Shown here in pieces: positions 10,748 through 27,511 of a stretch of DNA of 45,534 bases. The stretch covers positions 1 to 45,534 of the forward strand of contig JAOZUK010000017.1 in NCBI GenBank assembly GCA_029938715.1, given 5' to 3'. Made by a program: the position numbers and the translations under genes. Numbering within the stretch: the first letter of the stretch is position 1; each line of letters opens with the position of its first letter. This DNA comes from Bacteroidales bacterium (GTDB taxonomy: Bacteria > Bacteroidota > Bacteroidia > Bacteroidales > GCA-2748055). The notes below the pieces were generated by a model, which was not told where the DNA came from, did no database searches, and was given only the letters and a program-made list of their open reading frames with translations.

Positions 10748-12004
10748 TTATTTATCAGCCTTTCCTCCAAATGTGTAGTTGTAATAACTGGCCAGGAATC
10801 TTACCCCAAACGTAGTTCCAACATCCCGTTGTGTAATCCACAATTTACCTTTTTTATGCCGTAGCCTGGTGTTAATTACCGCCCCGGCCAGATTTGGGTC
10901 CGGATGGTCAATGGCATATCGATTCTTCAGGATCCATTCCAGAGAGAGTTCAATATCGTCATCAAATCCTTCAACGCCATGTTCCCGCAACCTGAGCCAC
11001 AGGAGTCCGGAAAAAGCCACTGCCGATCCACAAACTGAACTTCGGTCGCGGGTACCATCCACAAAATTCTGATAGTAGATGGTGCCTGCACCATCCTGGA
11101 ATTCAGTGAAGGTCTCTGCCGTTTTCCGGGCAGCCTCCAGGTAACGTTTGTCTCCAGTCAGTTCATATCCATCAATTAAGGATTCGGCATACCAGAGGTT
11201 AAAACGGGGATGAACACTTCCCGACTCCTTGTGGTTGGGCATAAAATCCATCCATAACCCCTTCGGTCCCTGTTTCTCTACCAGGCTGTTGCAGAGGGTG
11301 ATAAAAACCTCCTTATACTCCTCATTTCCAGTATATTCATACATATCCAGAAAAAGGGACCCCTCATTATTGGGACGGGCCACATCGTAGAGATCCTGGT
11401 TCTCCTTGTCGGGCCAGAAGGGGCTGTATTCTTTCATCACTTCACCGGTTTCAGGATCCACATTGTCATAGCAGACCCCTTCATCCAGCAGGCACATATT
11501 CCGTAACATCCAGTCGCCTGCCTGTGTAGGCACATCTCCATATCGCATATCTCCTGTAAGATCGAACAGTTTATACAATCCTGCCGAACCATCCGACATG
11601 GTGGCAAAAACAATGGTCTCCCCTGCATGGTCGCCATGGGCCGATTTAACCATTCCTTTCAATTTGGGATGGTCCTTTATCTCCAGTCCAACCCACCAAT
11701 CGCCCGCCTCCCTGGCTTTGGACATATAAGATTCATCTCCGGTAATCTGGTAAGCTTCAAGAAGGGCATAGATGGCCTGACCCGTATGCCAGGGGGGTTC
11801 ATAATCGTACCACTTTCCTTCAGGAATGTTGTAATCGCACCTGGAGAAACCCTGCTCATTGATCAATACATTGGATATATACCCTGCAGTTTCGTTTAGA
11901 GCCTTAAGTACCCGCTTCTCCTTTTCGGGACCCTCATCTCCCGCACAATAGGAGAAGACAGGGATTAGAAAGAGCAACAGGGAATAGTTTATCATCTTTT
12001 TCAT
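10748..12004 (-). CDS. (alpha/alpha)6-barrel glycoside hydrolase-like lipoprotein
   Basis: A 418-residue lipoprotein: the N-terminus MKKMINYSLLLFLIPVFSYC places a lipobox cysteine at residue 20. The rest is a series of paired helices with repeated sugar-barrel phrases (HTGQAIYALLEAYQITGDESYM, GSAGLYKLFDLTGDMRY, NEGSLFLDMYEYTGNEEY, YAESLIDGYELTGDKRY), typical of six-hairpin glycosidases and related epimerase/lyase families. The repeated aromatic and acidic residues fit a GH88/GH105-like or glucuronyl-epimerase-like role, but no catalytic motif decides this. It lies 16 bp after the GH20-like gene and directly before the symporter. Acting on uronic-acid-containing oligosaccharides in the periplasm or at the surface is an inference from the neighbours. 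Confidence 0.65.
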   Translation of the reverse strand: MKKMINYSLLLFLIPVFSYCAGDEGPEKEKRVLKALNETAGYISNVLINEQGFSRCDYNIPEGKWYDYEPPWHTGQAIYALLEAYQITGDESYMSKAREAGDWWVGLEIKDHPKLKGMVKSAHGDHAGETIVFATMSDGSAGLYKLFDLTGDMRYGDVPTQAGDWMLRNMCLLDEGVCYDNVDPETGEVMKEYSPFWPDKENQDLYDVARPNNEGSLFLDMYEYTGNEEYKEVFITLCNSLVEKQGPKGLWMDFMPNHKESGSVHPRFNLWYAESLIDGYELTGDKRYLEAARKTAETFTEFQDGAGTIYYQNFVDGTRDRSSVCGSAVAFSGLLWLRLREHGVEGFDDDIELSLEWILKNRYAIDHPDPNLAGAVINTRLRHKKGKLWITQRDVGTTFGVRFLASYYNYTFGGKADK

Positions 12005-12020
12005 GTGTATCCTTTCATAG

Positions 12021-14588
12021 TTACTGAATATAGTATTTCTGCTTATGATTTCTTACCTCCACATCTTTAAGTCTGAATGCAAGGCTCCATCCTGCCTTCC
12101 ACTGTTCCACCTTTATCATCAGGTGGTTTCGCCCCTCTTCCAGGTCCAGCAGGATCTCATCCTCATCGGCGATCAGACTACGCTTTGCATGGATGTGATG
12201 CACCTCTTTGCCATTGCACCAGACTGTGGCCCCATCATTACTTCCCAGCAGGGCAGTCACCTGTTGCTTAAGGGGTGAATCTATGGTGCAGTAAGCATAG
12301 GCCACAGCGGTAATGTGAGGCTCGAAAATGATTTTAAAGTCGATCTCTCCCAACTTGGGAGAATCATACTTGATCCAATACCGTTCCTGACCAGCCTCAT
12401 CTGTAAATTTCATACCCGGGAAGGGCTTCACATTCGCTTCGCCTCCAATGGGTTTCAGAAAATCGGGTGCGTACTCCTCAAAAGAGTCTATTGTAAAACT
12501 TCCGGTAAGCAGCCAGTATTGGAAAAACTGACCTGATTGCTTCCTGATATCCAGTCTCACTTCGGTGGGCGGTGGCAGGTAGGCACCCCTTCTAAAATTA
12601 TCTACGGTAGCTTCAAGAAGGTTGGATTGATCCGCCAAAGCATCTGCATGTCTGTTGTATTCCATCAGTGCCCGATCCCTCCAGTAGGCACGGTTCTCCA
12701 TGTCCCAGAGAATTTCAAAATCGGCCCGTACCAGATCAAAACGGTATTTTAGATCGGATATGATCTCTTTTGCTTTTTCCAATTCGACCATGGCAGAAGG
12801 ACGACTCATTCGCTGGAAATTACAGGCCCGACTGTAAGCCTCGGAAGCTCTTAATAACTGCTCTCTGGCTCTGGCCATAAATTCATACTGCGAGATGGTA
12901 AACTTAATATAGATCAGATCCGTATCATAGTGGGGTGTTGAAGCTGCAAAAAGCGTATTCCTGGCTTCAGTTGTCCACCTCTTCACTTCGGTCCACTGGT
13001 CGGGATTGAAAGTCACTTTTTTACCCCTTTCCGGAATCAGGGTTTTATAAAAAACATTGGAGTTCATTTCGAATGTGGGTCCCAGATCGGTAAGGTGATT
13101 CAGTGTATGAAGGGATGACGGAATCAGATTGTTCTGGTCCCCATAGATCCCCCTGCTAAAACGCTGGTCATAGTCATCCAGCGGATCCCGATTGGGTCGC
13201 CAGCACTGCTCGGCATTGTAAGCCACGGCATACCAGTCGTGGGAGAAAAAGTGTGCTCCTCCATCATCCCATGATGTAAAGTATACCCCGATGGTTCCCT
13301 TCTCATACCCTTCATTAATAAAATTTCGGATATTGGCAGTGCTCATCCGGAAATCGGGAATCAGGCGGTTGGAGTTCAGTACGCCCGGAGCAATGGTAAA
13401 ATCAAATCCCTTTTCAGTAAGCGGATCAATAAATTCGGCAAAGGATTCGGAGGGACTATAGTTCCAGGCTCCCATCACTATATCTTTTGGGATCATATCA
13501 AGAATCTCAGGATGTTCCAGGACAATGTCTCCCCAGATAATGGTTCGCTTCCCCAGACTTTTAAGTACCGAATCGATCCGGGTCACATGATCGGCGTAGA
13601 TCCTGGCAGGCCCAAGAGTATCAGCGGCCCCTGTCAATCCTCCGCGGGAGAGGTCCCAGGCCTCATCACAATTTGGGGTAAACCAGGGTGAACTAAATGC
13701 CGGAGCCATCTCCTTATAGATATCCTCCAGGAACTCAATGGATGCCGGATTAAGGGGATCGATCATTCTTTCGGTAGCTCCCAGATGCCTGAACTGGGGC
13801 AGACTAAGAATTTTTTCAAAATGGCCAAGGGACTGGAAGTTACCCACCAGCTCCAGGTGATAGTCGGCCGCATACTCGGACAGTTCTCTGAACTCTTCTA
13901 TGGAGATTCCACCGTTTACCGGCGCCATATCAGGATACTTTTTGGTTTTCACAACATGTTCGATATAGAACGACATGTTGTTGATTTTCATCTCGGCATA
14001 GCGCCGAATCTGCTGCTTCAGAAAATCGTTGGTGGGAACAGGCCCCCGGCTGATGTCATCCATCACACACCGGAAGGCGATGGAGGGCCAGTCGCGGATC
14101 TCCACTGCCGGCAATTCTTCAGATTTACTGTACCCTCTGAGCATCTGCTTCAGTGTCTGCACTCCATAAAAGGCACCTGCCGGAGCGTTGGCAACAATGT
14201 AGATGTTCTTCTTCTCCACCCTAAGTATATATCCCTCCTCTCCAAGCTTCGTGTCGGGCAGAATATTTTTCTTTCGGGCCTGAACCAGCAATTGCTCATC
14301 GGACGATGCAAGTCCTATCCAGATGGTGGGTCGATCTGCATCTCCATGGATCAGCTCAGCGCCATATTTTTCCAAAAACGATAGGGATAACTGTTGCTTT
14401 ATGATTTCAGCCGAATTGCCTTCCAGTCCACTTAATCGAAGGGAGACAGGTTGTCCGGAAACAGAAAAGTATCCTTTTCCAAATACCACCTTCTGTGGAT
14501 AGGGTACCACAGGGATTCTTTCACCATCTGCGGCTTGTCCATACACAGAAACAAACAGCAGCATCAAGACAACAAGACCAATGTTCAT
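12021..14588 (-). CDS. Secreted GH20-like beta-N-acetylhexosaminidase with C-terminal beta-sandwich
   Basis: The start chosen is the ATG at 14588, which gives the signal peptide MNIGLVVLMLLFVSVYGQA; an in-frame ATG at 14603 adds five residues. Numbered from 14603, a GH20b-like domain (about 28-165, with IVANAPAGAFYGVQTLKQML) precedes a TIM barrel from about 170. The likely catalytic Asp-Glu pair is Asp313-Glu314 in NCDEAWDLSRGG, where classical GH20 enzymes have GGDE. A beta-sandwich (about 755-855, NDGATVWCNGKEV...LMIKVEQWKAGW) ends the protein and may bind glycan. The enzyme would release terminal N-acetylhexosamine by substrate-assisted catalysis. GH84 or GH123-like membership cannot be excluded. 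Confidence 0.78.
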   Translation of the reverse strand: MNIGLVVLMLLFVSVYGQAADGERIPVVPYPQKVVFGKGYFSVSGQPVSLRLSGLEGNSAEIIKQQLSLSFLEKYGAELIHGDADRPTIWIGLASSDEQLLVQARKKNILPDTKLGEEGYILRVEKKNIYIVANAPAGAFYGVQTLKQMLRGYSKSEELPAVEIRDWPSIAFRCVMDDISRGPVPTNDFLKQQIRRYAEMKINNMSFYIEHVVKTKKYPDMAPVNGGISIEEFRELSEYAADYHLELVGNFQSLGHFEKILSLPQFRHLGATERMIDPLNPASIEFLEDIYKEMAPAFSSPWFTPNCDEAWDLSRGGLTGAADTLGPARIYADHVTRIDSVLKSLGKRTIIWGDIVLEHPEILDMIPKDIVMGAWNYSPSESFAEFIDPLTEKGFDFTIAPGVLNSNRLIPDFRMSTANIRNFINEGYEKGTIGVYFTSWDDGGAHFFSHDWYAVAYNAEQCWRPNRDPLDDYDQRFSRGIYGDQNNLIPSSLHTLNHLTDLGPTFEMNSNVFYKTLIPERGKKVTFNPDQWTEVKRWTTEARNTLFAASTPHYDTDLIYIKFTISQYEFMARAREQLLRASEAYSRACNFQRMSRPSAMVELEKAKEIISDLKYRFDLVRADFEILWDMENRAYWRDRALMEYNRHADALADQSNLLEATVDNFRRGAYLPPPTEVRLDIRKQSGQFFQYWLLTGSFTIDSFEEYAPDFLKPIGGEANVKPFPGMKFTDEAGQERYWIKYDSPKLGEIDFKIIFEPHITAVAYAYCTIDSPLKQQVTALLGSNDGATVWCNGKEVHHIHAKRSLIADEDEILLDLEEGRNHLMIKVEQWKAGWSLAFRLKDVEVRNHKQKYYIQ

Positions 14589-14606
14589 TTCCTTCCTCCT
14601 CATCTT

Positions 14607-16061
14607 CTATTTTTCTAATACATCTATATTTTCCATACCTGCCATATTGATCCCTTCATACTTCATTCCTTTTACATCCTCTGCGATTAGGGGGACTCTG
14701 TCATCGGGGTTTTGAAGTGTTACAAAAATTTCAAAAAGATTGATCTGATCCACATGGCGCATATACAATATGGATGCCGGCAAGACTCCAAACATGGTAG
14801 CTTCCGGATAGAGATCCTCAAGTTCAGGAACCTCTCTCCGGGGATCACGAGCCCCTTCCCCACCTTCCAGTTCCATAGCAATCTGTGACAGAGTTACATT
14901 CCGTACCGGAAAACCAGGAATTCCCGTAATGGAACAACCAGTTGAACCTCCATTCCTGACCACCAGGTTCTCAATCAGGATATTCTTTACCTCGCCAACC
15001 CCAGGCATCTTTACTCCATTCATATATGGCCGGGCCCGGTTTCCCAACCTTATAAACAAAGGAACTTCCGGACCATCAATCACTACATTGGAGATATGCA
15101 CTTCATCCATGGTACCCCCATCTACTACTTCCAGGGAGATACCACTTATGCCCTGAGGCAAACCATAGATCACCTCCTTCCGGGAAGAGGGTTTCACCAC
15201 ACAATCTGTGATGATGATGTTCTTAAATCCCCCGGTGGATTCAGTTCCTAATTTGATGGCATTGCAGTGACTGCTAATTATACAGTTGGAAATGGTCACA
15301 TTCTCACAGGCCCGTGGTGAAGTACTCTTCAGGGTTATTGCATCATCATCGCTATCGCCCACACAACCTGTAATAACTACATTACTGCAGCCATCGATAT
15401 CAATCATATCATTGTTCTTGTTGCAGTGATTAAAGACCTTGATGTCCTCGATCAACACCTGGTCACAGGCAAGGTAGTGCTGCATCCACATGGCCGAATT
15501 CTGCAGGGTAACCTCTCGCACTTCTACACGGGAGCACTCTGTAAACCGGATCAGGAAGGGGCGGTTTATATAGCGGTCCGGTTTCACATTGGTGGTCACC
15601 TGAAATGCTTCTCCCTGTCCATCGATCACTCCTCCACCTGTGATAGCAATATCCACCAGGTTTGCTCCAAAAATAAGACTCTGTTTCACCCATTCGTCCC
15701 CGAAGAACCTGTATGCAGAAACCATTTCAGGATAGTCCTCCGGACTTTTACTTCCCAGTAGCACCGCACCCTTTGTAACATGCAGTTCCACATGATCCCT
15801 CATCACCAGGGTTCCCGTTAGAAATCTACCTGGGCCAATCACCACCCGGCCGCCACCTTCAAGGGCACATTTATCAATGGCACTCTGAATGGAAGCGGTA
15901 TTAAGGGTAATCCCATCTCCCACAGCCCCATAATCGGTTACCATGTAGTCGCCTAATGAGGCTACAGTTATTCTCTCCAAAGAGCAGGTTTTTTCCTGGG
16001 GTGCCACCAAAAGCACCATCACAACCAAAAGTTGAACCCCATATTTATGGACCAGCTTCAT
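14607..16061 (-). CDS. Glycoside hydrolase family 28-like protein (polygalacturonase-type beta-helix)
   Basis: A secreted right-handed beta-helix protein of about 484 residues. The N-terminal pattern DYGAVGDGITLNTASIQSAI and GGGRVVIGPGRFLTGTL is diagnostic of GH28. The catalytic region reads NNDMIDIDGCSN, SDDDAITLKS and SSHCNAIKLGTES, corresponding to the NTDGID, DD and GHG elements, but the glycine before the histidine is changed and the RIK motif is not obvious, so the substrate may differ from homogalacturonan. The start at 16061 overlaps the stop of the upstream isomerase gene (ATGA) and gives the signal peptide MKLVHKYGVQLLVVMVLLVAP; an upstream ATG at 16079 is less likely. Confidence 0.85.
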   Translation of the reverse strand: MKLVHKYGVQLLVVMVLLVAPQEKTCSLERITVASLGDYMVTDYGAVGDGITLNTASIQSAIDKCALEGGGRVVIGPGRFLTGTLVMRDHVELHVTKGAVLLGSKSPEDYPEMVSAYRFFGDEWVKQSLIFGANLVDIAITGGGVIDGQGEAFQVTTNVKPDRYINRPFLIRFTECSRVEVREVTLQNSAMWMQHYLACDQVLIEDIKVFNHCNKNNDMIDIDGCSNVVITGCVGDSDDDAITLKSTSPRACENVTISNCIISSHCNAIKLGTESTGGFKNIIITDCVVKPSSRKEVIYGLPQGISGISLEVVDGGTMDEVHISNVVIDGPEVPLFIRLGNRARPYMNGVKMPGVGEVKNILIENLVVRNGGSTGCSITGIPGFPVRNVTLSQIAMELEGGEGARDPRREVPELEDLYPEATMFGVLPASILYMRHVDQINLFEIFVTLQNPDDRVPLIAEDVKGMKYEGINMAGMENIDVLEK

Positions 16062-16990
16062 CCCCTGTGCTTGTACCATTTCTCAGTGAGCCAGGCAGCT
16101 GAAGAGCGGTATGCTCCATCCAGATCGCGCACATCCGATTCTGCTCCACCCACATCAATCCCAAACATACCCCTGTAATCGATCCTGTCCAGGGTTTCAA
16201 AAAAACGCTCCCAGTGAATCTCCCCTTGCCCCATGGCCAGGTGCTCCACTTTCATACCCCGGTTATCCGAAAGGTGGATATAATCAATGTGATCCTTCAA
16301 CCTGATCAGGGATAGAAACAGGTTGTCTTTCATAAAGTACTGGTTAGCCGTATCCAGGTTAAAGCGAAGGTTATCCCTCTTGAGTGCATCTGCAAACAGC
16401 AGATAGGCATCGGTGGAGTTGACAAGGGCTCCATAACAGGGATGCAGGTGATAGGTAAGTCCTCTATCGGCTGCCAGATCGCACACATTTCTAAATGTGT
16501 CCAGCAATCCATCCCAGTACTGGTCCCAATCCAGATCACCGGGAATGGTGGCCGTGGACAGCACCTCTTCATCATAGTGACGGGTGACGGGAATCCCGGC
16601 CGGGAACTGCCAGGGAGGGATGGGAGCATTGTCCAGTACCACCTTTGAACCCAGGGAGACAGCAACTTCACATCCCTTTTCAAACAAAGCCACGTTTTGA
16701 TCCCGCTCAGCAGGATCAGGTGAACATAATCCAGGAAGCACTACGCAAAAAACCGGGACCTTTATCCCCAGACCATCGGCCTTTTCCCTGATCTGCGTAC
16801 GCATCGAATGCACCCCTTCAAGGTGCTCTTTGCGAATTCCTTCAAGCTCAATACTGGCAAAGCCCAACTCCTTCAACTCCTCCAGGTGACTAAGCGCATC
16901 TGCTGCCACAGGAGGATAACCATGACGGGTAATTATATAGAGGTAGCAGGCTACGATATCCTCGCGAATTCCTTCCATGATCCTATCCAT
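16058..16990 (-). CDS. Sugar phosphate isomerase/epimerase (xylose isomerase-like TIM barrel)
   Basis: A protein of about 310 residues in the AP-endonuclease-2/xylose-isomerase-like family. The TIM-barrel landmarks are LKELGFASIELEG, the metal-ligand strands YHLHPCYG, FNLDTANQYF and YIHLSDNRG, then GQGEIHWERFFETLDRIDY and FGIDVGG. Members isomerise or epimerise sugars and keto-sugars or, less often, dehydrate inositol derivatives. The ATG at 16990 overlaps the Nramp-like stop (ATGGATAG), indicating coupling; starts at 17011 and 16978 are possible. It ends overlapping the following GH28 gene. A lack of any signal peptide implies a cytoplasmic step on an imported sugar of this locus. Confidence 0.82.
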   Translation of the reverse strand: MDRIMEGIREDIVACYLYIITRHGYPPVAADALSHLEELKELGFASIELEGIRKEHLEGVHSMRTQIREKADGLGIKVPVFCVVLPGLCSPDPAERDQNVALFEKGCEVAVSLGSKVVLDNAPIPPWQFPAGIPVTRHYDEEVLSTATIPGDLDWDQYWDGLLDTFRNVCDLAADRGLTYHLHPCYGALVNSTDAYLLFADALKRDNLRFNLDTANQYFMKDNLFLSLIRLKDHIDYIHLSDNRGMKVEHLAMGQGEIHWERFFETLDRIDYRGMFGIDVGGAESDVRDLDGAYRSSAAWLTEKWYKHRG

Positions 16991-18227
16991 TAAATTGCCC
17001 TGCAATGCCAATGATACCAGCTAATGCCATCGCAATGGTAAATAAAAGTATAAAGCCCATTGACACATTGGAGGTGACTCCCAGGGTATGATTTCCCACA
17101 ATGGATTTCTTATTGTATATGTACAACATAAGGGCAAGCACAAGCGGAGTCACAATGGCTGCCATGGCCTGCGAGATAATCATCACCATCACGGGTCTCC
17201 CGCCAAATACAGGCACCACCAAGCCAAGCAACACTCCAAAAAGGACCAACAATCGACTGCTGGTTGATTTCATATCCCTGGGCTTATTGTTAAAGTCAGC
17301 AAAGAGCCAGGGGGCAAGTAAAACAATAGGAAAGAGGGAGGAGAGTCCGGCCGCCACAATGCCACCCACAAAAATGGAGATAGCAAACCGTCCTGCCAGG
17401 GGCTCCATCAATTTTACCATATCAATGGCATTGTTCACCTTTAATCCGAGGGGATGCAGGGTTCCTGCAGCAGCAGCCATTACAGCCACGCTCAGTATAA
17501 ACATCATAGAGACTGAGATAATGGCATCACGCCGTTCAGCCTTAAGGTCTCCCGTGCCCCATCCCTTCTCCTGAACCAAAATGGACCTCACCACATAGAG
17601 TATGGCCCCCATTGTGGTCCCAACCATCCCGGCCATAATCAACATGGCATCGGAATCTTTGGGCACACTGGGAATCAATCCCCTCAGCACTTCTTCAGGC
17701 TCGGGAATAACCATAAACATGGTCATCACAAATGATAGGCCCATAATTCCCACAAAAACAGCGAGTACCTTTTCAAATATCTTATGCTGCCCATTCCAGA
17801 ATAGATAGTAGAGCATCCCTCCGAATATCAGTGCGGTAATGATAGGGCTAAACCCGTTCCCTGATTTGGTCAGGGGCCTGGACCACTCCTGCACCACCTG
17901 AGTAACCACTCCCATCACGCCCATGCAACTGACCCATTCACTCACCAGCAGCGAGATCAGAACAAAGACTGTAATGCCCAGACCGAAGTACTTTCGAAAG
18001 CTGGTAAGGATGGTTAACCCCGTCAATGAGGTATACCTCCCAAATAGCATGATCAGGAAAAAGGTGAAAATACAGGAAAGCAATAGTGGCCAGATCATGG
18101 TCAAACCGTAAGCTGCCCCTGAAGAGGCCATGGTGGTAATGCTGCCGGTTCCAATGTTATATCCGATCAGAAAGAGCCCAGGGGCAATACTGGCAAAAAA
18201 GAGTCCGGCTTTTTTAAATATGCTCAA
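16983..18227 (-). CDS. Nramp-related inner-membrane transporter
   Basis: A 414-residue polytopic protein with about 11 hydrophobic helices that resembles Nramp-family divalent metal transporters (APC/LeuT fold). The first helix reads IAPGLFLIGYNIGTGSITT; the canonical DPGN metal-binding motif of true Nramp proteins is absent, and the helix-6 MPH motif is not visible either (AAAAGTLHPLGLKVNN occupies that area). It is therefore probably one of the Nramp-related carriers with a different substrate. It sits inside the glycan operon, 45 bp after the GH28/lyase fusion and overlapping the isomerase gene, so a role in uptake of a glycan-derived solute or of a metal cofactor are both possible. Confidence 0.75.
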   Translation of the reverse strand: MSIFKKAGLFFASIAPGLFLIGYNIGTGSITTMASSGAAYGLTMIWPLLLSCIFTFFLIMLFGRYTSLTGLTILTSFRKYFGLGITVFVLISLLVSEWVSCMGVMGVVTQVVQEWSRPLTKSGNGFSPIITALIFGGMLYYLFWNGQHKIFEKVLAVFVGIMGLSFVMTMFMVIPEPEEVLRGLIPSVPKDSDAMLIMAGMVGTTMGAILYVVRSILVQEKGWGTGDLKAERRDAIISVSMMFILSVAVMAAAAGTLHPLGLKVNNAIDMVKLMEPLAGRFAISIFVGGIVAAGLSSLFPIVLLAPWLFADFNNKPRDMKSTSSRLLVLFGVLLGLVVPVFGGRPVMVMIISQAMAAIVTPLVLALMLYIYNKKSIVGNHTLGVTSNVSMGFILLFTIAMALAGIIGIAGQFNG

Positions 18228-18272: not shown

Positions 18273-20717
18273 TTAGGGCTCTCCTACTGGAACTACATAC
18301 ACCTGTGAAACACCGGATCTATCGGATGTATAACAGATATATTTCCCATTGGGACTAAATGAAGGATGTACATGTGCCCTCATTGTATGCCCTCCATCTA
18401 CAGACGAATTTGGCCAGCATAGTACCTCTCCCTCACCCGAATCCAGATTTACCAATACCAGCTCATTGCTACCGGGTTGCTGGCAGTCAGAGATAAACCA
18501 ACGGCCATCACGGCTTGCAATTCCATGTCCGAGCTTTATACTATCGCTTTCATAATGTACCCTGAAATCGCCCCCGCTTTTATCCTGGGAACAAATGGCA
18601 GCGGGGCTCCAGCCCGGGCGCGTCTTTCGAAAAAAGAAGAAGCGCTCCCCATCATAGGACCAGCTCTCGTGGGTGGCCCTGAATCCGTAGGGCATAGTTA
18701 AGAACTGCCTGTCGGTCCCGGCTTTCAAATCCACTTTCCACGACCGTGCCCGCATCTCCATGGGGAGTGACATATCGTTCTGAGTATCGGGACCGGGCAC
18801 ATAGGTAATCACATTCGGGTCCTCAGGGTTGATCAGGGGGTGGGAGATCTTTCCTTCCAGGTGTCGGTGAACTTCCAGCACCTCTCCTGTTACCAGGTTG
18901 GTTCTGAAAATGGCTTTCAGGGTATCGTTATACACATAGACCAGAGTATAGTTGCCATCGTTGGTAAATGATCCTGTATACCTGGGTTTATCGGGCAACA
19001 ATCCGGTATAATCGTACAACATCTCCTCCTCTCCACTCTCTACCCGGGTGGCATAGAGTTTCCATCCATCCAGGTAGCACACCCGCTCTCCATCAGGCAT
19101 AAGGGTGTAGTCATCATCCATGATCTTCCTGGAAAGAGGTGTAATGGGAGCAGATACTCCCGATTTCAGGTCGGTTCGATAAAGCCTCCATACTCCGGAT
19201 TTTCGTGAAGCATAAATCACATACTTCTCATCGGAAGTAAAAGCCTGGCGTTCAAAATAACAGGCCACTGCAGGAGCTGTATCTGAGGTGATCTGCCAGA
19301 CCTCCCTGCCAGTTTCCGGGGATGTGCTTTTTACCCATGATGGCCATCCTCCATCCACATCAAAGGCCTGGCCATTGATTCGTACCCCTTCCATCTCCAG
19401 GTGATCCATGAAATTTACTTCCACAGGTTGGGGAGCCGATTTAATCTCCACATCCCTGATAAAAATCGAATCGAGGTGCACCTGGGGAGATCCATTTAAA
19501 TAAATCCCATGATCGGAAGCGTGACTGGCACTAATATGTTCTATCCAAATATTTTTAAAATGAGGCGGACAACACGATCCCTGGTTCTTATAGTTCGAAT
19601 CGATAATAATGGTCGAACGGGTGGAATCAAATTCAATATTGCGCGCATAGATATCATGTACCATGCCCCCCCGGTCCCGGTTGCCCTTCAGATAAAACCC
19701 ATAGATTACCTTTCCGGCAAAACTGCAGTCTTCCACATAAACATCATGCACTCCTCCAGACATCTCACTTCCCACAGCAATGGCATTGTGCCCGCTAAAA
19801 AGACAATTCCTCACTACGATATTTCGGGAAGGCCTCTTTAAGGTTCTTGCTTCAAGGTCCCTCCCGGCCTTAATAGCTATGTTATCGTCTCGATTGTTGA
19901 AAACAACATCTTCAATCAACACATTTTCACTGGACTCGGGATCAATTCCATCGTTATTAAAATTGAAAGCTTCGTAAGTAACCCTCCTCACTGTAATATC
20001 GCTGGAAAATACAAAGTGGAGGCACCAAAAGGGAGAGTCGGAGATTTTTACATCTTCCACCAGGATATTTTTACACTCGTAGAATTGCACCAGGTGGGGA
20101 CGCAGAAAGTGACCTTTCCCAAATACACGCTCCTCAAGGGGAACTTCCTGGTTATTCATGCCCCGAATTAATTTCTTATCCGGGTCCTGAAGACTTTTCC
20201 AGTTATTCCAGGTGGTAGATGCATTTCCATCGATCTCTCCTTTTCCTGTTATGGCAATGTTATTGGCTCCGTTTGCATAGATAAAGGGCGAATAGTTATA
20301 GGCCCTTGTACCCTCCCAGCTGGTAAGCACCACCGGAAGGTAATCGTCGGGATTGTTTCCAAAAACCAACCGTGTCTCCTCTTCCAGGTGCAGATTGGTA
20401 TGGCTGACCAGATGAATGGGACCATTGATCAGGTAGGTTCCGGGTTCTACCACGACCCGTCCGCCACCCGATTCTGCCACTGCAGAAATGATTCGATCAA
20501 ATGCACTTTTATTATCAGTAACACCATCACCCTTCCCTCCGAAATCTGACAGTAAAAAAGTCTGTTCAGGTATCTCAGGAAGTGTAATCTGGTCAACAAT
20601 ATCTGCAGCATGCCTCCATGGATCAACGCCGTCCTTCAGGTTCCTGTTTGACTTACATCCAAAGGTTGCCACCATCAAAGCAGCTGCGACAATCAGCAAC
20701 CGGACTCTACAATTCAT
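18273..20717 (-). CDS. GH28 - oligogalacturonate-lyase-like (PL22/TolB propeller) fusion lipoprotein
   Basis: An 814-residue lipoprotein starting at the ATG at 20717: MNCRVRLLIVAAALMVATFG then lipobox Cys21. The frame is open up to 20774, but that stretch is a terminator hairpin, so the upstream start is rejected. The N-terminal half is a GH28 beta-helix with canonical NNDGIDPE, RDDNIAIK and SGHNAIAVGSE motifs. From about residue 460 follow repeated beta-propeller blades (DEKYVIYASRKSGVWRLYRT, THESWSYDGERFFFFRK, HVHPSFSPNGKYICYTSDRSG) resembling the oligogalacturonate lyase/WD40-like TolB fold, with the RAHVHP segment matching the lyase metal-ligand region. One polypeptide may thus hydrolyse and eliminate uronic-acid linkages. 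The two catalytic assignments are by motif only. Confidence 0.8.
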   Translation of the reverse strand: MNCRVRLLIVAAALMVATFGCKSNRNLKDGVDPWRHAADIVDQITLPEIPEQTFLLSDFGGKGDGVTDNKSAFDRIISAVAESGGGRVVVEPGTYLINGPIHLVSHTNLHLEEETRLVFGNNPDDYLPVVLTSWEGTRAYNYSPFIYANGANNIAITGKGEIDGNASTTWNNWKSLQDPDKKLIRGMNNQEVPLEERVFGKGHFLRPHLVQFYECKNILVEDVKISDSPFWCLHFVFSSDITVRRVTYEAFNFNNDGIDPESSENVLIEDVVFNNRDDNIAIKAGRDLEARTLKRPSRNIVVRNCLFSGHNAIAVGSEMSGGVHDVYVEDCSFAGKVIYGFYLKGNRDRGGMVHDIYARNIEFDSTRSTIIIDSNYKNQGSCCPPHFKNIWIEHISASHASDHGIYLNGSPQVHLDSIFIRDVEIKSAPQPVEVNFMDHLEMEGVRINGQAFDVDGGWPSWVKSTSPETGREVWQITSDTAPAVACYFERQAFTSDEKYVIYASRKSGVWRLYRTDLKSGVSAPITPLSRKIMDDDYTLMPDGERVCYLDGWKLYATRVESGEEEMLYDYTGLLPDKPRYTGSFTNDGNYTLVYVYNDTLKAIFRTNLVTGEVLEVHRHLEGKISHPLINPEDPNVITYVPGPDTQNDMSLPMEMRARSWKVDLKAGTDRQFLTMPYGFRATHESWSYDGERFFFFRKTRPGWSPAAICSQDKSGGDFRVHYESDSIKLGHGIASRDGRWFISDCQQPGSNELVLVNLDSGEGEVLCWPNSSVDGGHTMRAHVHPSFSPNGKYICYTSDRSGVSQVYVVPVGEP

Positions 20718-20734
20718 AAGCTCAATTCCTAAGC

Positions 20735-20768
20735 AAAAGCCACCCTGCGAAGGGCAAGGCGGCTTTTT
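20735..20768 (-). terminator. Intrinsic terminator after the double beta-helix gene
   Basis: In the leftward RNA, arms at 20755-20767 and 20735-20747 pair over 13 bp (two G-U wobbles included) around a seven-base loop, and the 3' arm ends in GGCTTTT. The hairpin lies 20-50 bp after the stop of the gene at 20787-23384 and before the fusion gene start at 20717. It probably separates high expression of the receptor/exported protein from the enzyme genes or allows partial read-through. The + strand equivalent has A-C mismatches, so it works better leftward. Confidence 0.7.
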
Positions 20769-20786
20769 AATCACATTAACTTATAA

Positions 20787-23384
20787 TCACTTCTTCAGAA
20801 TCTTCAGGGTGGAAACCTCACTACCTGCATTCATCCTTAAGATGTACATTCCGGTTCCAAGTTGATGTCCTGAATCATCGGCACCATTCCAGGAAATGGA
20901 ATGACTGCCTGAAGGATAAGAACCATATGAAAGAGTTGCTACCTTCTGGCCCACCACACTATATAATGATATTTCAACCTCTGCATCTGTATCCAGGTTA
21001 AAACGAATGGTGGCAAAGTCTACAACAGGTACAGGGAACACTTCCAGATTTGAATTCGAGTAATCGAATTGCTCGGTTCCTATGACAATTTCACCATCCC
21101 ACCTCAAATCTCCAAGCTGACCACTGGTGGAGCTGGCTGCCATAAGTGGCGTATTTTTAAATCCGAAGTCGAAAGGTTCACCTGCAATATCGAATGCCGG
21201 CGGTGTCAGATTTGCATCGGGAGTGGCATACCAATCAGACACCATGGTATAATTCGCCACTGGTCCGTTTGTAAACATCACATCCTCGGCCAGCATGGTT
21301 GCTCCTGTTCCGGCTTCATCCACATAGGCCTGGGCAGCCATATTGAACATGGGAGTTACTATAATCGAATCGGGCTGCTGATCTGCATACCCTGCATCGG
21401 TAAAGATGCTGTTATTACTAATGGTTATGTCCTGTACAACTCCCTCAATGGAATCCACATTGATCACCCCGCGGGAATCATCCAGCTCTTTACCCAGCAC
21501 ACCGCAATCTTTAAAGATGCTGTTGGTAATCACAGCTTTGTAAACCTGGCCTACATCCATTGCACGGCGACCTGTATTCACAACAGTGTTGTGGTCGAAG
21601 TGAAAAAGTTGCATGGTTCCACCACCATCCCTGATGAGACGGGAACCGATGTTATAAAAGGTGGAGTTCTCAATCCAGATTGTTTTCACATCATTTCCTC
21701 TGTCATCGATCACCCTTCCATTGTCATAATCCTGGTCCATATTGGAAACGTTACAATTCTTCAGAATAACACTTATATTATCTGCATCCAGTCTGAATGG
21801 TGCCTGTGTATCCTCATTCAACAGGCAATCTTCCAATGTGATCACCGCAAAATCCCCTTTAACTCGGATCGTATTCTTATTGCGGGCTCCCAGCTCATCG
21901 GTATTGGAAATATCCAGACCAATAAGGGTAAGATCGTCACGCGGTACGAAAAGCCTTGCGGATTCATTTCCATCATCCACTGCCGGATAGAGTTTAGGCT
22001 TTACAGTTGCGCCTTCTTCTGCAATAATGGTTAATGGAAAACGATTCTCAATTTCACCCATGGAGAGGTAGTATCCTCCATCGCCAAGTATATAAATCGT
22101 GTAAGGATCTACCCTGTCGCCCGTGGCGGTGGTATCCCCGAAAATGGCATCATTGATGGTTCCCACTCCCTGCTCAATGGTTATATACCTTTGATCGGGC
22201 ATGGTTGCATCCCATCGTGGATCTCCAAGCGGCCCGTCATCGGTGTCGCCCATGGCCAGTGGTCTGCTGTTATATCCAAAATCGAAAGGCTCTCCTGTTA
22301 TATCAAATGCCGGAGGCGTAAGATCGGCATCCGGGGTTGTATACCAATCAGACACCATGGTGTAATTTGGAGCAGGTCCCTTGGTAAACATCACATCCTC
22401 TGCCAACATGGTGCCTTCGGTAACCGCTTCGTCAACAAAGGCCTGTGCAGCCATGTTAAACATGGGAGCTTCCAGAATGGTATCTGGTTGCTGATCGGCA
22501 TAGCCTGCATCGGTAAATGAGCTGTTGTTGCTGATCAGGATGTCCTGGGTGACTCCTTCAATGGAATCCACATTGATCAATCCCCGGGTATCAGTTGTAT
22601 CTTTACCCAATTGCCCGCAATCCTTCAACAGGTTATTGGTGATAATGGCTGCGTAAACTTGTCCCACATCCATCACCCGGCGACCGGTATTAACGACTGT
22701 GTTGTGATCAAAATAGAAGTAGTTCATACTACCACCACCATCCCTGATCAGGCGGGATCCTATGTTATAAATGGTCGAATTCTCAATCCAGATGGTATCC
22801 ACCTGATTTCCACGGTCATCAATCACCCTTCCATTGTCATAATCCTGGTCCATATTAGAGATCACACAATTCTTAATGATTATACTTATATTTTCACCAT
22901 CCAACCGGAATGGCGCCTGGGTATCCTCGTTCAGACTGCAATCTTCCAGGTAGATCCTTGCATTATCCCCTTTCACCCTGATGGTATTTTTATTTCGGGC
23001 TCCCAATTCGTCGGTATTGGAGATATCCAGTCCGATAAGAGTAAGATCATTACGCGGAACAAAGAGTCTGGATGATTCATTTCCATCATCTACAGCCGGG
23101 TAAAGTTTAGGTTTAACAGCTGCACCATCAGCTGCCACAATCGAAAGCGGGAAGCTAAAATCAATCTCACCGGTTGACAGGTAAAATCCTCCATCAGACA
23201 GTACATAGACCGTGGTACTATCGACCCGGTCACCGGTCTCAGTGGTATCACTGAAGATTGCTTCATTCAAAGTGCCCACACCCTGTACAACTTCCACAGT
23301 CCTCTGGGCTAAAATCGATGCAGACAGCCCCAGTAAGAGGGCCATCATCATCAGAGATGACATTGTTTTGTAAATTTTTTTCAT
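20787..23384 (-). CDS. T9SS-exported protein with two tandem beta-helix units
   Basis: An 865-residue protein with a signal peptide (MKKIYKTMSSLMMMALLLGL then SASILAQ). Two homologous units of about 365 residues follow (about 28-392 and 399-763), each with parallel beta-helix phrases such as LTLIGLDISNTDELGARNKN, RVIDDRGN and DHNTVVNTGRR, resembling pectate-lyase-like surface proteins (DUF4957/DUF5123 type). A short linker leads to a type IX secretion C-terminal sorting domain (about 775-865: LEVFPVPV, VEISLYSVVGQKV, GTGMYILRM, LKILKK). The protein is therefore predicted to be exported and surface-attached. It lies 42 bp after the receptor gene, in the position where susD is usually found, so glycan binding or lyase activity is plausible; no catalytic residues were identified. 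Confidence 0.8.
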   Translation of the reverse strand: MKKIYKTMSSLMMMALLLGLSASILAQRTVEVVQGVGTLNEAIFSDTTETGDRVDSTTVYVLSDGGFYLSTGEIDFSFPLSIVAADGAAVKPKLYPAVDDGNESSRLFVPRNDLTLIGLDISNTDELGARNKNTIRVKGDNARIYLEDCSLNEDTQAPFRLDGENISIIIKNCVISNMDQDYDNGRVIDDRGNQVDTIWIENSTIYNIGSRLIRDGGGSMNYFYFDHNTVVNTGRRVMDVGQVYAAIITNNLLKDCGQLGKDTTDTRGLINVDSIEGVTQDILISNNSSFTDAGYADQQPDTILEAPMFNMAAQAFVDEAVTEGTMLAEDVMFTKGPAPNYTMVSDWYTTPDADLTPPAFDITGEPFDFGYNSRPLAMGDTDDGPLGDPRWDATMPDQRYITIEQGVGTINDAIFGDTTATGDRVDPYTIYILGDGGYYLSMGEIENRFPLTIIAEEGATVKPKLYPAVDDGNESARLFVPRDDLTLIGLDISNTDELGARNKNTIRVKGDFAVITLEDCLLNEDTQAPFRLDADNISVILKNCNVSNMDQDYDNGRVIDDRGNDVKTIWIENSTFYNIGSRLIRDGGGTMQLFHFDHNTVVNTGRRAMDVGQVYKAVITNSIFKDCGVLGKELDDSRGVINVDSIEGVVQDITISNNSIFTDAGYADQQPDSIIVTPMFNMAAQAYVDEAGTGATMLAEDVMFTNGPVANYTMVSDWYATPDANLTPPAFDIAGEPFDFGFKNTPLMAASSTSGQLGDLRWDGEIVIGTEQFDYSNSNLEVFPVPVVDFATIRFNLDTDAEVEISLYSVVGQKVATLSYGSYPSGSHSISWNGADDSGHQLGTGMYILRMNAGSEVSTLKILKK
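21096..22190 (-). repeat. Second unit of the internal coding duplication
   Basis: Residues about 399-763 of the exported protein. Long stretches match unit 1 exactly at the protein level, for example LGARNKNTIRVKGD, RVIDDRGN and NIGSRLIRDGGG, at an offset of 371 residues. The nucleotide sequences also remain clearly alignable, with mostly third-position changes. Confidence 0.85.
22209..23303 (-). repeat. First unit of the internal coding duplication
   Basis: Residues about 28-392 of the exported protein, the partner of the unit at 21096-22190. The units differ mainly in scattered conservative replacements and near the end (SRPLAMGDTDDGPLGDPRWD versus NTPLMAASSTSGQLGDLRWD). Confidence 0.85.
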
Positions 23385-23426: not shown

Positions 23427-26285
23427 TTAAAATATATAACGTACCCCAACATCAGCCGACCAGCCAAAATACTCTTCACGTGTAGGGAAGTTGGCCGATC
23501 CCAGGAAAGCTCCTTCAGAATAGTTTGTAAGGTTATTTACATTCAGATAGACACTGAAATGATCACCGAATTTCTGCCGAACCACCATGTCCCACCGAAC
23601 ATAAGAATCGGTAAAGCCATCCAGCTCAGGACGGGTTCCCACAAATTGCAGGCTGGGTCCCTGAATCACAAGGGAAACTCTGCCCGAGAATCCTCTTTTT
23701 TCATATCCAATCGAAAAGTTTCCCACGTAATCCACCTGGCCGGGCATCCTGCCAATCCTCACCGTATCAATAATGGTAGGTGTAAATGGAGGAAGCGGAC
23801 TCCTCTCCCCAATCTCAAAGAATGGGAACTCGGTTTGTGAAAACATCCTTGAGTAGTTCAGATACAACACAATTCCATCAAAGGGTGCCGGCAGGTACCT
23901 GAAATTGGTCTGTAACTCCAGTTCCAATCCCTTCACAATAGAGGTGCCCTCTGCATTTACAGGTTCAGTGAGCGAATATCCAAAGTACTCTCCTTCATCC
24001 TGAATCCTGTTGGTTCTGATATAATCGATGTTATCAATTTCCTTATAGAAGAATCCGGCAGTAAACATCCCCACATTATGGTAGAAGGAGAGAAAAAGGT
24101 CATAATTGTAGGCTTCAACATGTTTCAGGGCTGGATTCCCCTGCTCAATGTTTTGATCCATCCGCACAATCTCCCTCCAGGGAACCAGGTTGAAGTAATC
24201 GGGGCGTGAAAGTGTTTTGGTATAGGCCAGCCTGATATCGAACCAGTCCAGGGGCTTAAGCCTAACGTGGATCATGGGAAGGAACTCTGCATAATTCTGC
24301 CCTCCCGTGGTATCAGTCAACCCCCCTATATTCTCTCCCTCTCCATCCTCACTGTTGAAGGGATTTCCAAATAGGGAAGAGTAGTTATTGGTGGTATACT
24401 CATAACGGACCCCCGGCATAATCATCGCCCAACTTCCAATGTTGATCTCGGTCATCAGGTAACCGGCTAAAATCTCCTCCTTTGCCGAATATACCTGCAG
24501 AAGAGCCCTGTTGTCCTGTATATACAATGAATCACCACCTGGAAGTACATAGTTCCGGTACTGCTCCCCAAAATCAAGAATCTCTTCCTGGTCCAGGGTG
24601 GGCCCGAAATCATACCTTCCTCCCAACCAGGGATTCAGATCCGTACCCGGGTCCAAAAAGCTTGAGATTGCCATCTTGCCTTCAGAGGTCAGATCATAGA
24701 GATCTGGTTCAGCTTCGGCAAATTCATTCAATCCGAAATGGGAGGTCCAGTAACGGTCCATATCCCGGTCCCGGTCCTTATGTCTGTATTTCCCCCCACC
24801 CTTAACGTAGCCATTGACTCTATTTCCTATGCTGAAGGGCAATTTCAAATCAAGTAGTCCGGTTACATTCCGGTCTTTACTCCTGGAGGTTTCAAAAGAG
24901 TTCTCCTTAAAGAAGGTTGCATCCAGGTTATTTTTGGCTCCCGCCGGAATATACTCAGGTCCCTTGTCCTCCTCCAGATCGGGATTAAATGCTGCAAGTT
25001 CACGAAAAACAGCATTTTGCTGAAAAGGGGTATTTTGCACACTCTGAGAATAGGAGCCTCTCCAGAAAATCTCCAGGCTTCTTACAAAATGTCGACCACT
25101 TAAGTTATTTGACAAAAGACTGGTTTTAATATCCCTGTCTCTCGTATCGTACTCCGTCCTCCAGGAACCAATCCTGTAGCGCTTTCTGCGACGAAGTTCG
25201 ACCCTGTCAGTCTGGTTGAACGATGAAGTAAAAAGTATCTTCCCTTTAGGAAGTTTATAATCCAAAGTCGCACTGGCCCCGCCTCTGTATCGAGTCTCCT
25301 GACGATCTATAAGGTTCATGTTATTGACGCCGATCACAGCCTCATCATTGGAAATCCCCTTGTAAACGTAACCCACATCCAGCAGGTCCGATCCCCTGTT
25401 GGCCCTTTGAAAGCTGCCTGTAATCAATGCCCCAAACTTATCTTCAAAAAAACGATTGCCCAGACTGGCTGATGTCTTGTATTGCCCAAAATCTTTTTCA
25501 TGGGCATTATACCCTGTCTGCAACAGAGCAGACCCATGAAATCCCGGATCAGCATTCCTGGCGATAAAGTTCACCGATCCTCCAATGGCATCACCATCCA
25601 TATCTGGTCTCAATGCCTTAAAAACTTCCATCCCTTCAAGCATATCAGGAGAGATCATACTTAGATCCACCGAACGGTCCAGGGGATCGGTAGAGGGTAT
25701 CCTCTCTCCATTGATGGTGATGGAATTAAACTTGGGAGCCAGGCCCCTTACCACCACTTTACTTCCCTCACCGGCATCCCTCTGAATAGATATTCCCGGA
25801 AGCCTGCCAATGGCTTCAGCAGCATTTGCATCGGGAAGCTCGCTGATTTTCTCTCTGGAAACCACATTGACAATGGTATTGGACTTTATCTGCCGGTTGA
25901 TGGCTGCAGTCTGACCCCGCATCATGGCTGTAACAACAGCCTCCTCACCCATGATCGACTCTACCTCAAGGACACCATCTATCTCTTTGGTCTCCCCTGC
26001 ACGAATCTCAATGGCCTGCTCAATATCCTTATAACCCAGGTAGCTAAAAATCAGAGTATAGGTCCCGGGTTTCACATTTAGCAGCTGATAATTTCCATCA
26101 TTATCTGTCACTGTACCGGTGGTGGTTCCCACAAGGGCTACATTGGCATACATCAGGACCTCTCCACTCTGGGCATCTTTCAGGGTACCTTTAACTCCCC
26201 CTCTCGTCTGTGCATTTACTACCAAAACAGATATGAATATCAGGGCAAAAGTCAAAACTCCAATTTTCCCCATACGTTGTTTCAT
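23427..26285 (-). CDS. TonB-dependent receptor (TonB-Xanth-Caul-like)
   Basis: An outer-membrane importer of about 952 residues. After the signal peptide (MKQRMGKIGVLTFALIFISV...NAQ) there is a carboxypeptidase-regulatory-like domain (about 30-115: GGVKGTLKDAQSGEVLMYAN, YQLLNVKPGTYTLIFSYLGY), then a plug with ISELPDANAAEAIGRLPGIS, VVRGLAPKFNSITING and GDAIGGSVNF, and a 22-strand-type barrel ending in aromatic VGVRYIF. The plug phrasing resembles the TonB-Xanth-Caul subgroup, which includes N-acetylglucosamine and other carbohydrate receptors that act without SusD. The ATG at 26285 is preferred over a GTG at 26291. A consensus promoter and a LacI-type palindrome lie upstream; the gene heads the leftward operon and would import the glycan fragments. 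Confidence 0.92.
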   Translation of the reverse strand: MKQRMGKIGVLTFALIFISVLVVNAQTRGGVKGTLKDAQSGEVLMYANVALVGTTTGTVTDNDGNYQLLNVKPGTYTLIFSYLGYKDIEQAIEIRAGETKEIDGVLEVESIMGEEAVVTAMMRGQTAAINRQIKSNTIVNVVSREKISELPDANAAEAIGRLPGISIQRDAGEGSKVVVRGLAPKFNSITINGERIPSTDPLDRSVDLSMISPDMLEGMEVFKALRPDMDGDAIGGSVNFIARNADPGFHGSALLQTGYNAHEKDFGQYKTSASLGNRFFEDKFGALITGSFQRANRGSDLLDVGYVYKGISNDEAVIGVNNMNLIDRQETRYRGGASATLDYKLPKGKILFTSSFNQTDRVELRRRKRYRIGSWRTEYDTRDRDIKTSLLSNNLSGRHFVRSLEIFWRGSYSQSVQNTPFQQNAVFRELAAFNPDLEEDKGPEYIPAGAKNNLDATFFKENSFETSRSKDRNVTGLLDLKLPFSIGNRVNGYVKGGGKYRHKDRDRDMDRYWTSHFGLNEFAEAEPDLYDLTSEGKMAISSFLDPGTDLNPWLGGRYDFGPTLDQEEILDFGEQYRNYVLPGGDSLYIQDNRALLQVYSAKEEILAGYLMTEINIGSWAMIMPGVRYEYTTNNYSSLFGNPFNSEDGEGENIGGLTDTTGGQNYAEFLPMIHVRLKPLDWFDIRLAYTKTLSRPDYFNLVPWREIVRMDQNIEQGNPALKHVEAYNYDLFLSFYHNVGMFTAGFFYKEIDNIDYIRTNRIQDEGEYFGYSLTEPVNAEGTSIVKGLELELQTNFRYLPAPFDGIVLYLNYSRMFSQTEFPFFEIGERSPLPPFTPTIIDTVRIGRMPGQVDYVGNFSIGYEKRGFSGRVSLVIQGPSLQFVGTRPELDGFTDSYVRWDMVVRQKFGDHFSVYLNVNNLTNYSEGAFLGSANFPTREEYFGWSADVGVRYIF

Positions 26286-26335
26286 ATCCACTCTTTCAAT
26301 TTATAGAAAAGCCATCAAATAACCCTCACAACTGA

Positions 26336-26431: not shown

Positions 26432-27511
26432 ATGAGTGAAAACGGAACCCATACCAGGATTAAGGACATTGCTGCCAGGGCGGGCTGTTCCATTGGGACC
26501 GTGGATCGGGTCATACACAACCGGGGGAAGGTATCTGAGTCGGTAAAAAAGCGAATTCTTGAGATCATCAGCGAGCTTGATTATAAACCCAATGTGAACG
26601 CCAGGGTTCTTGCCAGCAAACACCCCCTCAATCTGGGAATTTTACTTCCCGCTTATAATGAGGGAGAGTACTGGGAGCTGCCCACAGCTGGTATTCAACA
26701 CGCATTGGATCGATACAACGAGCAAGGGTACCAGATCAATGTATTCAGGCTAAGCTATCACAATCCAGAACAGTTTTACAAGGCAGGTATGCAAATGCTT
26801 GCGGAAAACATGGATGGGATCATCATGAGCCCGGCTACCTATAAGGAGAGTGTAAGGCTGGTCAGATCCTATTTTCAGGAGGCCAAACCTTTTATATTAA
26901 TTGATTCTGATATTCAGGGCTTACCCTCTCTCTCTTTTATTGGTAAAGATCCTGTACAATCAGGATCCACGGTGGCCAATCTGACCCACAAGGTAACCAG
27001 GCACATACCGGGACAAAAAAGAATATGGGTGATCAATATCTCTAAAAACCTTAGTCAGATGTACTCCTTCCTGGCCAGGGAGAGTGGTTTTATGAACTAT
27101 TTCTCAAACAAGCAGCTGCAGGAAGAATATAGTTTTAAGACCTATGAAATTGAGGACCGCGACATCCAGGAAGAGTTCGATAAGCACTTTCATAACCTGT
27201 TGTCGGATGGAGTGCCTCATGCCATCTATGTGACCGGCTCCAGAGTTTATAAGATCGCCAACAGCCTGAAAAAATATAAATCCGGATACAAGCCCCTGCT
27301 AATTGGCCACGATCTGATTCGACAAAACATGGAGAGGGTCAGGGATGAATCCATCGATTTTCTGATTGAGGAGGAGGCAGGCCGACAGGGTTATCTGGCT
27401 GTAGAAAGCATGATCAGAAGCATTGTTCACAAAGAGAAGATTGAGAAAAAACAGCTGATGAACCTGTTGATCTATACAAGGGAGAACCTACCACTAGATC
27501 CTTCGGAGTAG
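26432..27511 (+). CDS. LacI-family transcriptional regulator
   Basis: A 359-residue regulator. The N-terminal LacI helix-turn-helix (about residues 9-32: [20 protein letters not shown]) and hinge helix ([12 protein letters not shown]) are followed by a periplasmic-binding-protein-like sensor domain (about 65-335; [50 protein letters not shown]). [16 protein letters not shown] corresponds to the usual recognition-helix region. It is divergent from the receptor operon and convergent with nagB, whose end it overlaps by 18 bases. The two palindromes at 26372 and 28275 are its probable targets, so it likely senses an imported sugar of this locus. Whether it activates or represses is open; the site positions favour activation. 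Confidence 0.9.

Follow-up and report, generated by a model that had tools for sequence, protein, structure and literature searches.

In the SusCD and RagAB systems, a glycan-use locus encodes a helical SusD lipoprotein directly after a TonB-dependent receptor. The locus described here resembles them in that a putative partner is likewise encoded directly after such a receptor, but the protein is a type IX-exported beta-helix and the receptor is of the TonB-Xanth-Caul type, not SusC. The BtuB-BtuG vitamin B12 complexes, as described in PMC10404256, also join a TonB-dependent transporter to a surface partner other than SusD, and one of the BtuG proteins has an additional binding domain. BtuG is, according to the same source, a lipid-anchored beta-propeller for B12, whereas the protein considered here is a type IX beta-helix; by analogy, these complexes are a precedent for a non-SusD lid. 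Closer in sequence are the DUF4957/DUF5123 lipoproteins of SusCD loci, homologous beta-helix proteins with the same terminal GDPRW-type motif, which are lipoprotein-like and often encoded after SusD, in contrast to the type IX-exported protein studied here. As a lead, the Bacteroides thetaiotaomicron pair BT1025-BT1026, a TonB-dependent receptor and a DUF4957 protein in the account of PMC10434189, is a candidate related arrangement. In searches of openly licensed PubMed Central papers, no listed title or abstract described a pairing between a receptor and a type IX beta-helix protein.

We analyzed a stretch of 45,534 nucleotides from a Bacteroidales bacterium (contig JAOZUK010000017.1; hereafter the window). 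Its 865-residue, two-unit beta-helix protein is, in our judgement, probably exported by type IX secretion and acts at the surface as the bivalent, glycan-capturing partner of a receptor that has no SusD, a reading in which we infer both glycan binding and complex formation.

The locus and its two-unit protein

The two-unit gene and its neighbors are arranged as follows.

26432..27511, plus strand: divergent LacI-type regulator, on the other side of the receptor
23427..26291, minus strand: TonB-dependent receptor of the TonB-Xanth-Caul type with a CarboxypepD_reg N-terminal domain, a member of the beta-helix-linked clade
20787..23384, minus strand: two-unit beta-helix protein of 865 aa, putative type IX-exported receptor partner (ORF, HMM, unit alignment, AF2 model)
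18273..20774, minus strand: GH28 domain fused to a PL22-like/PD40 beta-propeller
16983..18227, minus strand: Nramp-family transporter
16058..17011, minus strand: sugar isomerase/epimerase-like TIM barrel
14607..16079, minus strand: GH28, rhamnogalacturonidase-like, scoring under the equivalog cut-off
12021..14603, minus strand: GH20-like glycosidase
10748..12004, minus strand: GH88/GH127-like enzyme
9323..10747, minus strand: sodium:solute symporter

The receptor scored 370 bits against TIGR01782 (cut-off 310) and 73 bits against the SusC model TIGR04056 (cut-off 368). Its gene ends 42 bp upstream of the two-unit gene, which thus occupies the position of SusD/RagB directly after a TonB-dependent receptor, as an earlier note made from the sequence alone had stated; our own SusD HMM matched none of the ORFs in the window. 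The GH28, Nramp, GH88 and other families found among the neighboring genes suggest a pectic, uronate-rich ligand. Across 22 of 25 loci, 71 downstream genes included GH28 (8), Nramp (8), GH2 (7), isomerase-like TIM barrels (7) and GH88 (6), counts that are non-independent in that 20 of the genes come from eight close relatives (L073-L080).

An Nramp transporter lies near a sugar isomerase in the window (16058-18227) and also at L073, L077, L083, L087 and L098, the latter five named by eye from N-termini; this recurrence suggests an unusual substrate for the transporter. The window joins GH28 and a PL22-like propeller in one protein; at L090, the gene immediately after the beta-helix gene is a separate one that matches PL22 weakly.

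The protein itself is divided as follows.

23307..23384, minus strand: signal peptide, aa 1-26, ending in SASILAQ and without a lipobox cysteine (called by eye from the sequence)
22200..23306, minus strand: beta-helix unit 1, aa 27-395 (unit alignment, AF2 model, fold search)
22740..22979, minus strand: Arg/Asp ladder stretch of unit 1 (R136, R160, D162, N184, R186, D189, D190, R191, R214, D215)
21087..22193, minus strand: beta-helix unit 2, aa 398-766 (unit alignment, model, fold search)
21627..21866, minus strand: the same ladder in unit 2, aa 507-586, with all twelve residues that were checked kept
20790..21041, minus strand: type IX secretion C-terminal sorting domain, aa 782-865 (TIGR04183, 32.1 bits; strands in the unit 2 model)

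The unit limits given in the earlier note (28-392 and 399-763) are in the same register as ours, and the sorting domain that it had placed after the two units was recovered above the TIGR04183 cut-off of 23, which identifies it as a type A sorting domain; the Pfam model PF18962 scored 23.3, under its cut-off of 27. The same genome encodes the type IX sortase PorU (1295 bits against a cut-off of 420), in agreement with the protein being type IX cargo, and the mature protein is therefore expected on the cell surface. Its first cysteine is residue 149, so that it lacks the lipoprotein signal of SusD/RagB proteins. Nor does it belong to that family by sequence: SusD was absent from its Pfam matches up to E 0.1 and our own SusD HMM did not match it. 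DUF4957 (PF16318) came close, with 28.5 bits against a Pfam gathering cut-off of 30.8. A scan of a viral collection gave no matches, and sequence searches of the PDB returned the sorting domain and otherwise weak, probably chance matches.

Age and origin of the duplication

The two units align without gaps at an offset of 371, with 281 of 369 residues identical (76%), and BLASTP of one against the other gave 582 bits, far beyond chance; the longest identical runs are 28, 18 and 15 aa. The tandem arrangement in the earlier note thus held, while its description of the units as near-identical was too strong. At the DNA level identity is 73.8%, falling to 53% at third codon positions, and the longest identical run is 35 nt. 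NG86 estimates between the units were dS 1.49 and dN 0.17. Codon pairs encoding the same residue (M and W excluded) were identical in 152 of 270 cases, compared with 106-115 expected at saturation; synonymous sites are well advanced in divergence but not fully saturated.

Given a dS near 1.5 and DNA that lacks extended tracts of identity, the duplication is neither recent nor being homogenised; these data do not support the earlier suggestion that it is recent or that gene conversion continues. The two units have instead been kept under purifying selection. The window units group as sisters in a 26-row tree (100/100), where a stem of 0.86 leads to arms of 0.16 and 0.17. Relatives of the same genus with the same gene order carry a single unit, and a test of 35 relatives, including some partial sequences, found no internal duplication; the duplication is old, yet lineage-specific among the sampled lineages.

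Tandem units also occur elsewhere. L216 (L216:3576-6656), a distant partner that adjoins a receptor from the same clade, has two units that are 93% identical, a duplication independent of that in the window. At a contig end, L210 (L210:2576-5794) encodes three tandem beta-helix units, 60-62% identical, followed by a sorting domain. The single-unit proteins of the same-genus loci L077, L078, L079 and L080 are ~90-150 residues longer than those of the other same-genus relatives and carry additional sequence ahead of the sorting domain.

Pairing with one receptor clade

A survey across the phylum that scored up to seven candidate receptors per genome yielded at least 66 matches, in 33 of 118 genomes. 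The receptor tree contains 62 of these; the other four are L124 (a near-copy with a partner), L150 (partner present, receptor ORF unrecovered), and L135 and L145_6 (receptors of the other type, without a partner). One clade, comprising 39 of the 62 receptors, all of the TonB-Xanth-Caul type, had an SH-aLRT support of 100. Within it, a beta-helix partner lies directly downstream in 36 cases, one receptor abuts a contig end, and two have no partner (L127 and L158, both in genome G162); none of the remaining 23 receptors has one. Mapping the presence of a partner onto the tree required 3 changes, compared with a mean of 20 after shuffling, and 0 of 500 shuffles gave a value as low.

Because the ORF caller may choose longer ORFs on the opposite strand, we assigned the survey labels anew from flanks translated in three frames. 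The iterated beta-helix HMM was partly trained on surveyed proteins, and a seed HMM built from alignment A2 before iteration, which shares the window, L085 and L097 with the survey, served as a check; it recovered all 36 partners at E 3e-7 or better. No SusD was found with our own HMM beside any of the 62 receptors, in flanks of up to 3.2 kb and often 1.5 kb, and PF07980, the single SusD model used for this count, had no match in 6 of 13 checked genomes with pairs.

The genome from which the window derives encodes seven such receptors, all with an adjoining beta-helix protein, six downstream and one upstream. At L053 (G000:C492) and L054 (G000:C516), similar beta-helix genes are cut by contig ends; on C516 the beta-helix gene precedes its receptor, in reversed order, and the receptor was read in two pieces.

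Searches starting from the partner gave a similar picture. Among named genomes, a receptor lay upstream in 23 of 24 assessable loci, the exception being L091; of the 27 loci in this set, L099 was dropped (sorting domain only), and L076 and L098 start at contig ends. A second partner survey, which scored up to four candidates per genome and overlaps both the receptor and the named-genome sets, found matches in at least 51 of 394 genomes (at least 108 rows). We examined its 30 best loci and 19 weaker, hand-picked ones, with others covered where another search had reached them. Of the 30, 29 (window included) have a partner ORF and an upstream receptor; at the remaining one, L201/L228, the receptor was present and the partner ORF was masked by a longer one on the opposite strand. 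Among the 19 weaker matches, a receptor was present in 11, absent in 4, and beyond assessment at a contig end in 4, so that 4 of 15 assessable weaker relatives (L211, L212, L215, L223) do not adjoin a receptor. Clades in these later loci were labeled with two receptor HMMs trained on survey receptors.

The export signal accompanies the pairing. Pfam Por_Secre_tail matched 24 of 26 rows of alignment A2 at E 0.1, the two others presumably being the window units, which were cut before the tail, and our own tail HMM matched 29 of 29 partners from the second survey. Named relatives carry the labels Bacteroidota, Chlorobiota, Ignavibacteriota, Rhodothermota, Balneolota and Gemmatimonadota, provisional assignments in that nearly all are MAGs; Agaribacillus aureus (L088) is a cultured relative that has the pair.

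Receptor and partner distances are correlated (Pearson 0.86, Spearman 0.60, n=36); shuffling partners within genomes gave a mean r of 0.27, and 0 of 5000 shuffles reached 0.86. Gene linkage or linked inheritance could by itself explain this co-divergence. Together, these data remove the possibility, raised in the earlier note as one that would refute it, that homologues never co-occur with TonB-Xanth-Caul receptors: the two occur together recurrently across genomes. Its proposal of a glycan-capturing surface protein in place of SusD gains the SusD position and a genomic pairing with one receptor clade across many genomes, while capture of a glycan is a deduction.

Behind four receptors of the other TonB-Xanth-Caul clade (L105, L106, L110, L112) lies a lipoprotein-like gene of ~350-360 aa, a putative phytase. 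It is perhaps another dedicated receptor partner.

Predicted fold, conserved residues and probable function

The units were modeled separately, all single-unit relatives having fallen on unit 2 in the two-unit alignment. AF2 predicted a beta-helix for unit 1 (pLDDT 88, pTM 0.89) and for unit 2 with the sorting domain (pLDDT 83). For both, the best solved match was the C-terminal domain of the PL6 enzyme BcAlyPL6 (7dmk, residues 427-747; Z 31.4 and 30.9, rmsd 2.3), with a related match to AlyGC (5gkd); unit 1 superposed over 291 residues at 19% identity. Most neighboring folds were polysaccharide lyases and phage depolymerases, and the adhesins PfbA and SRRP were also among the matches.

These adhesins, and the weaker relatives that have no adjoining receptor, would suit an adhesin at the cell surface, or some different type IX cargo, that adjoins the receptor through operon membership and nothing else. 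We regard this as very improbable: the pairing is confined to one receptor clade (36 of 38 assessable members, as opposed to 0 of 23 elsewhere), and the pairs co-diverge within genomes.

The predicted models have the parallel beta-helix fold of PL6, and with PL6 and other beta-helix lyases and hydrolases as the nearest solved structures, the protein might be a two-domain surface enzyme, a polysaccharide lyase or related protein, with an acidic pectic glycan as its substrate and no tie to the receptor beyond co-transcription. An Arg/Asp cluster conserved in the window's subfamily would fit this, as would the weak lyase activity that a review attributes to the PL6 C-terminal domain (PMC8618178). 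That domain is, however, the one matched by both units, and the active site of two-domain PL6 enzymes is placed in the N-terminal domain (PMC11381880). Our check for lyase motifs covered the PL6 motifs and lysine columns. The active-site motifs NG(G/A)E, KS and R(H/S)G given for PL6 (PMC6627919) are all absent from the window protein, which shares the PL6 fold but not these motifs; of the 26 rows, none has NG(G/A)E and one has R(H/S)G, and no lysine column reaches 60% conservation.

Nor is the charged cluster kept by partners of this receptor clade outside the window's subfamily. In the 26 rows of the subfamily, R160, R186, D189 and R191 never vary, while 23-25 rows have R136, D162, N184, D190, R214 and D215. 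In 31 partners from other branches, these ladder residues are found in 0-12, whereas the scaffold positions D196, N202, T204, T229, N250, N251, N287, G387 and W391 are kept in 23-31; both counts derive from one MAFFT alignment of 62 divergent sequences, with five survey pairs of the window's branch left out. The uncharged subfamily positions Q156, S176 and N193 vary in other partners too, a variability thus wider than the charges. R136, R160, R186 and R214 are spaced 24-28 residues apart, and from the sequence and the strand list these arginines probably sit on successive turns of the beta-helix. Because the scaffold is conserved and the Arg/Asp ladder is specific to the subfamily, the pattern, as read from the alignment, would point to recognition of a ligand more than to catalysis at a fixed site. 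We therefore consider the enzyme unlikely. The comparison with lyases that the earlier note had called for confirmed beta-helices nearest to a domain without the active site; of its alternative, a bivalent lyase, the lyase-type fold survives, while the missing PL6 motifs, the lack of a conserved lysine and the charged cluster that partner subfamilies do not share speak against catalysis.

The comparison with DUF4957 proteins bears on a third alternative. A profile of 11 lipoprotein-like DUF4957 sequences aligned to the window family in hhalign with a probability of 97.7% (E 1.4e-12). All 11 aligned proteins end in GDPRW, and the window units end in LGDPRW and LGDLRW; our tail HMM had no match in the 11 sequences. 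It seems that one beta-helix family has been put to two uses: a lipoprotein form follows SusCD, and a form exported through type IX follows receptors that lack SusD. In 8 of 18 loci the DUF4957 gene directly follows SusD, the position of a surface glycan-binding protein (SGBP), and the window protein could by extension be an accessory binder in the SusE/SGBP role, with no SusD-like lid and a receptor that works alone. We think this quite improbable: the partner comes first after the receptor and is near-obligate in the clade, an association that we judge tighter than expected of an accessory protein.

We favor a glycan-capturing partner over an enzyme, an accessory binder or mere operon membership. 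The observations behind this reading are the anatomy of the protein, its export signal, PorU, the predicted fold, the near-invariant pairing within a clade, co-divergence, and a conserved scaffold with subfamily-specific polar positions. From these we deduce that the mature protein lies on the surface, binds a glycan and touches the receptor, and that it may move like a lid. Counting against it are the receptorless weak relatives and L091, the reversed order on C516, the partnerless receptors L127 and L158, a co-divergence compatible with linkage, and the lyase-like folds. According to the favored model, the two-unit protein would reach the exterior by type IX export and be retained there, where each unit would present its Arg/acidic ladder on successive turns. 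The ladder may bind an acidic oligosaccharide of the pectin type, containing uronate, which the protein would hand to the TonB-dependent receptor without SusD; two units would allow bivalent capture.

A broader and more tentative possibility is that SusD-independent import of glycans across the outer membrane extends through the Bacteroidota and neighboring phyla. This receptor clade would form lid-like complexes with type IX beta-helix proteins in which the scaffold stays fixed and a replaceable polar ladder reads acidic glycans, and tandem duplications, arising repeatedly, would raise avidity. The combination of receptor clade, beta-helix and sorting domain provides a genomic handle for the pair. 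If the model is true, loci of this kind escape any search for glycan use that is based on SusCD pairs, the pair predicts the place on the cell surface at which the receptor and type IX export come together, and SusD is not the sole surface partner for glycan uptake in these bacteria.
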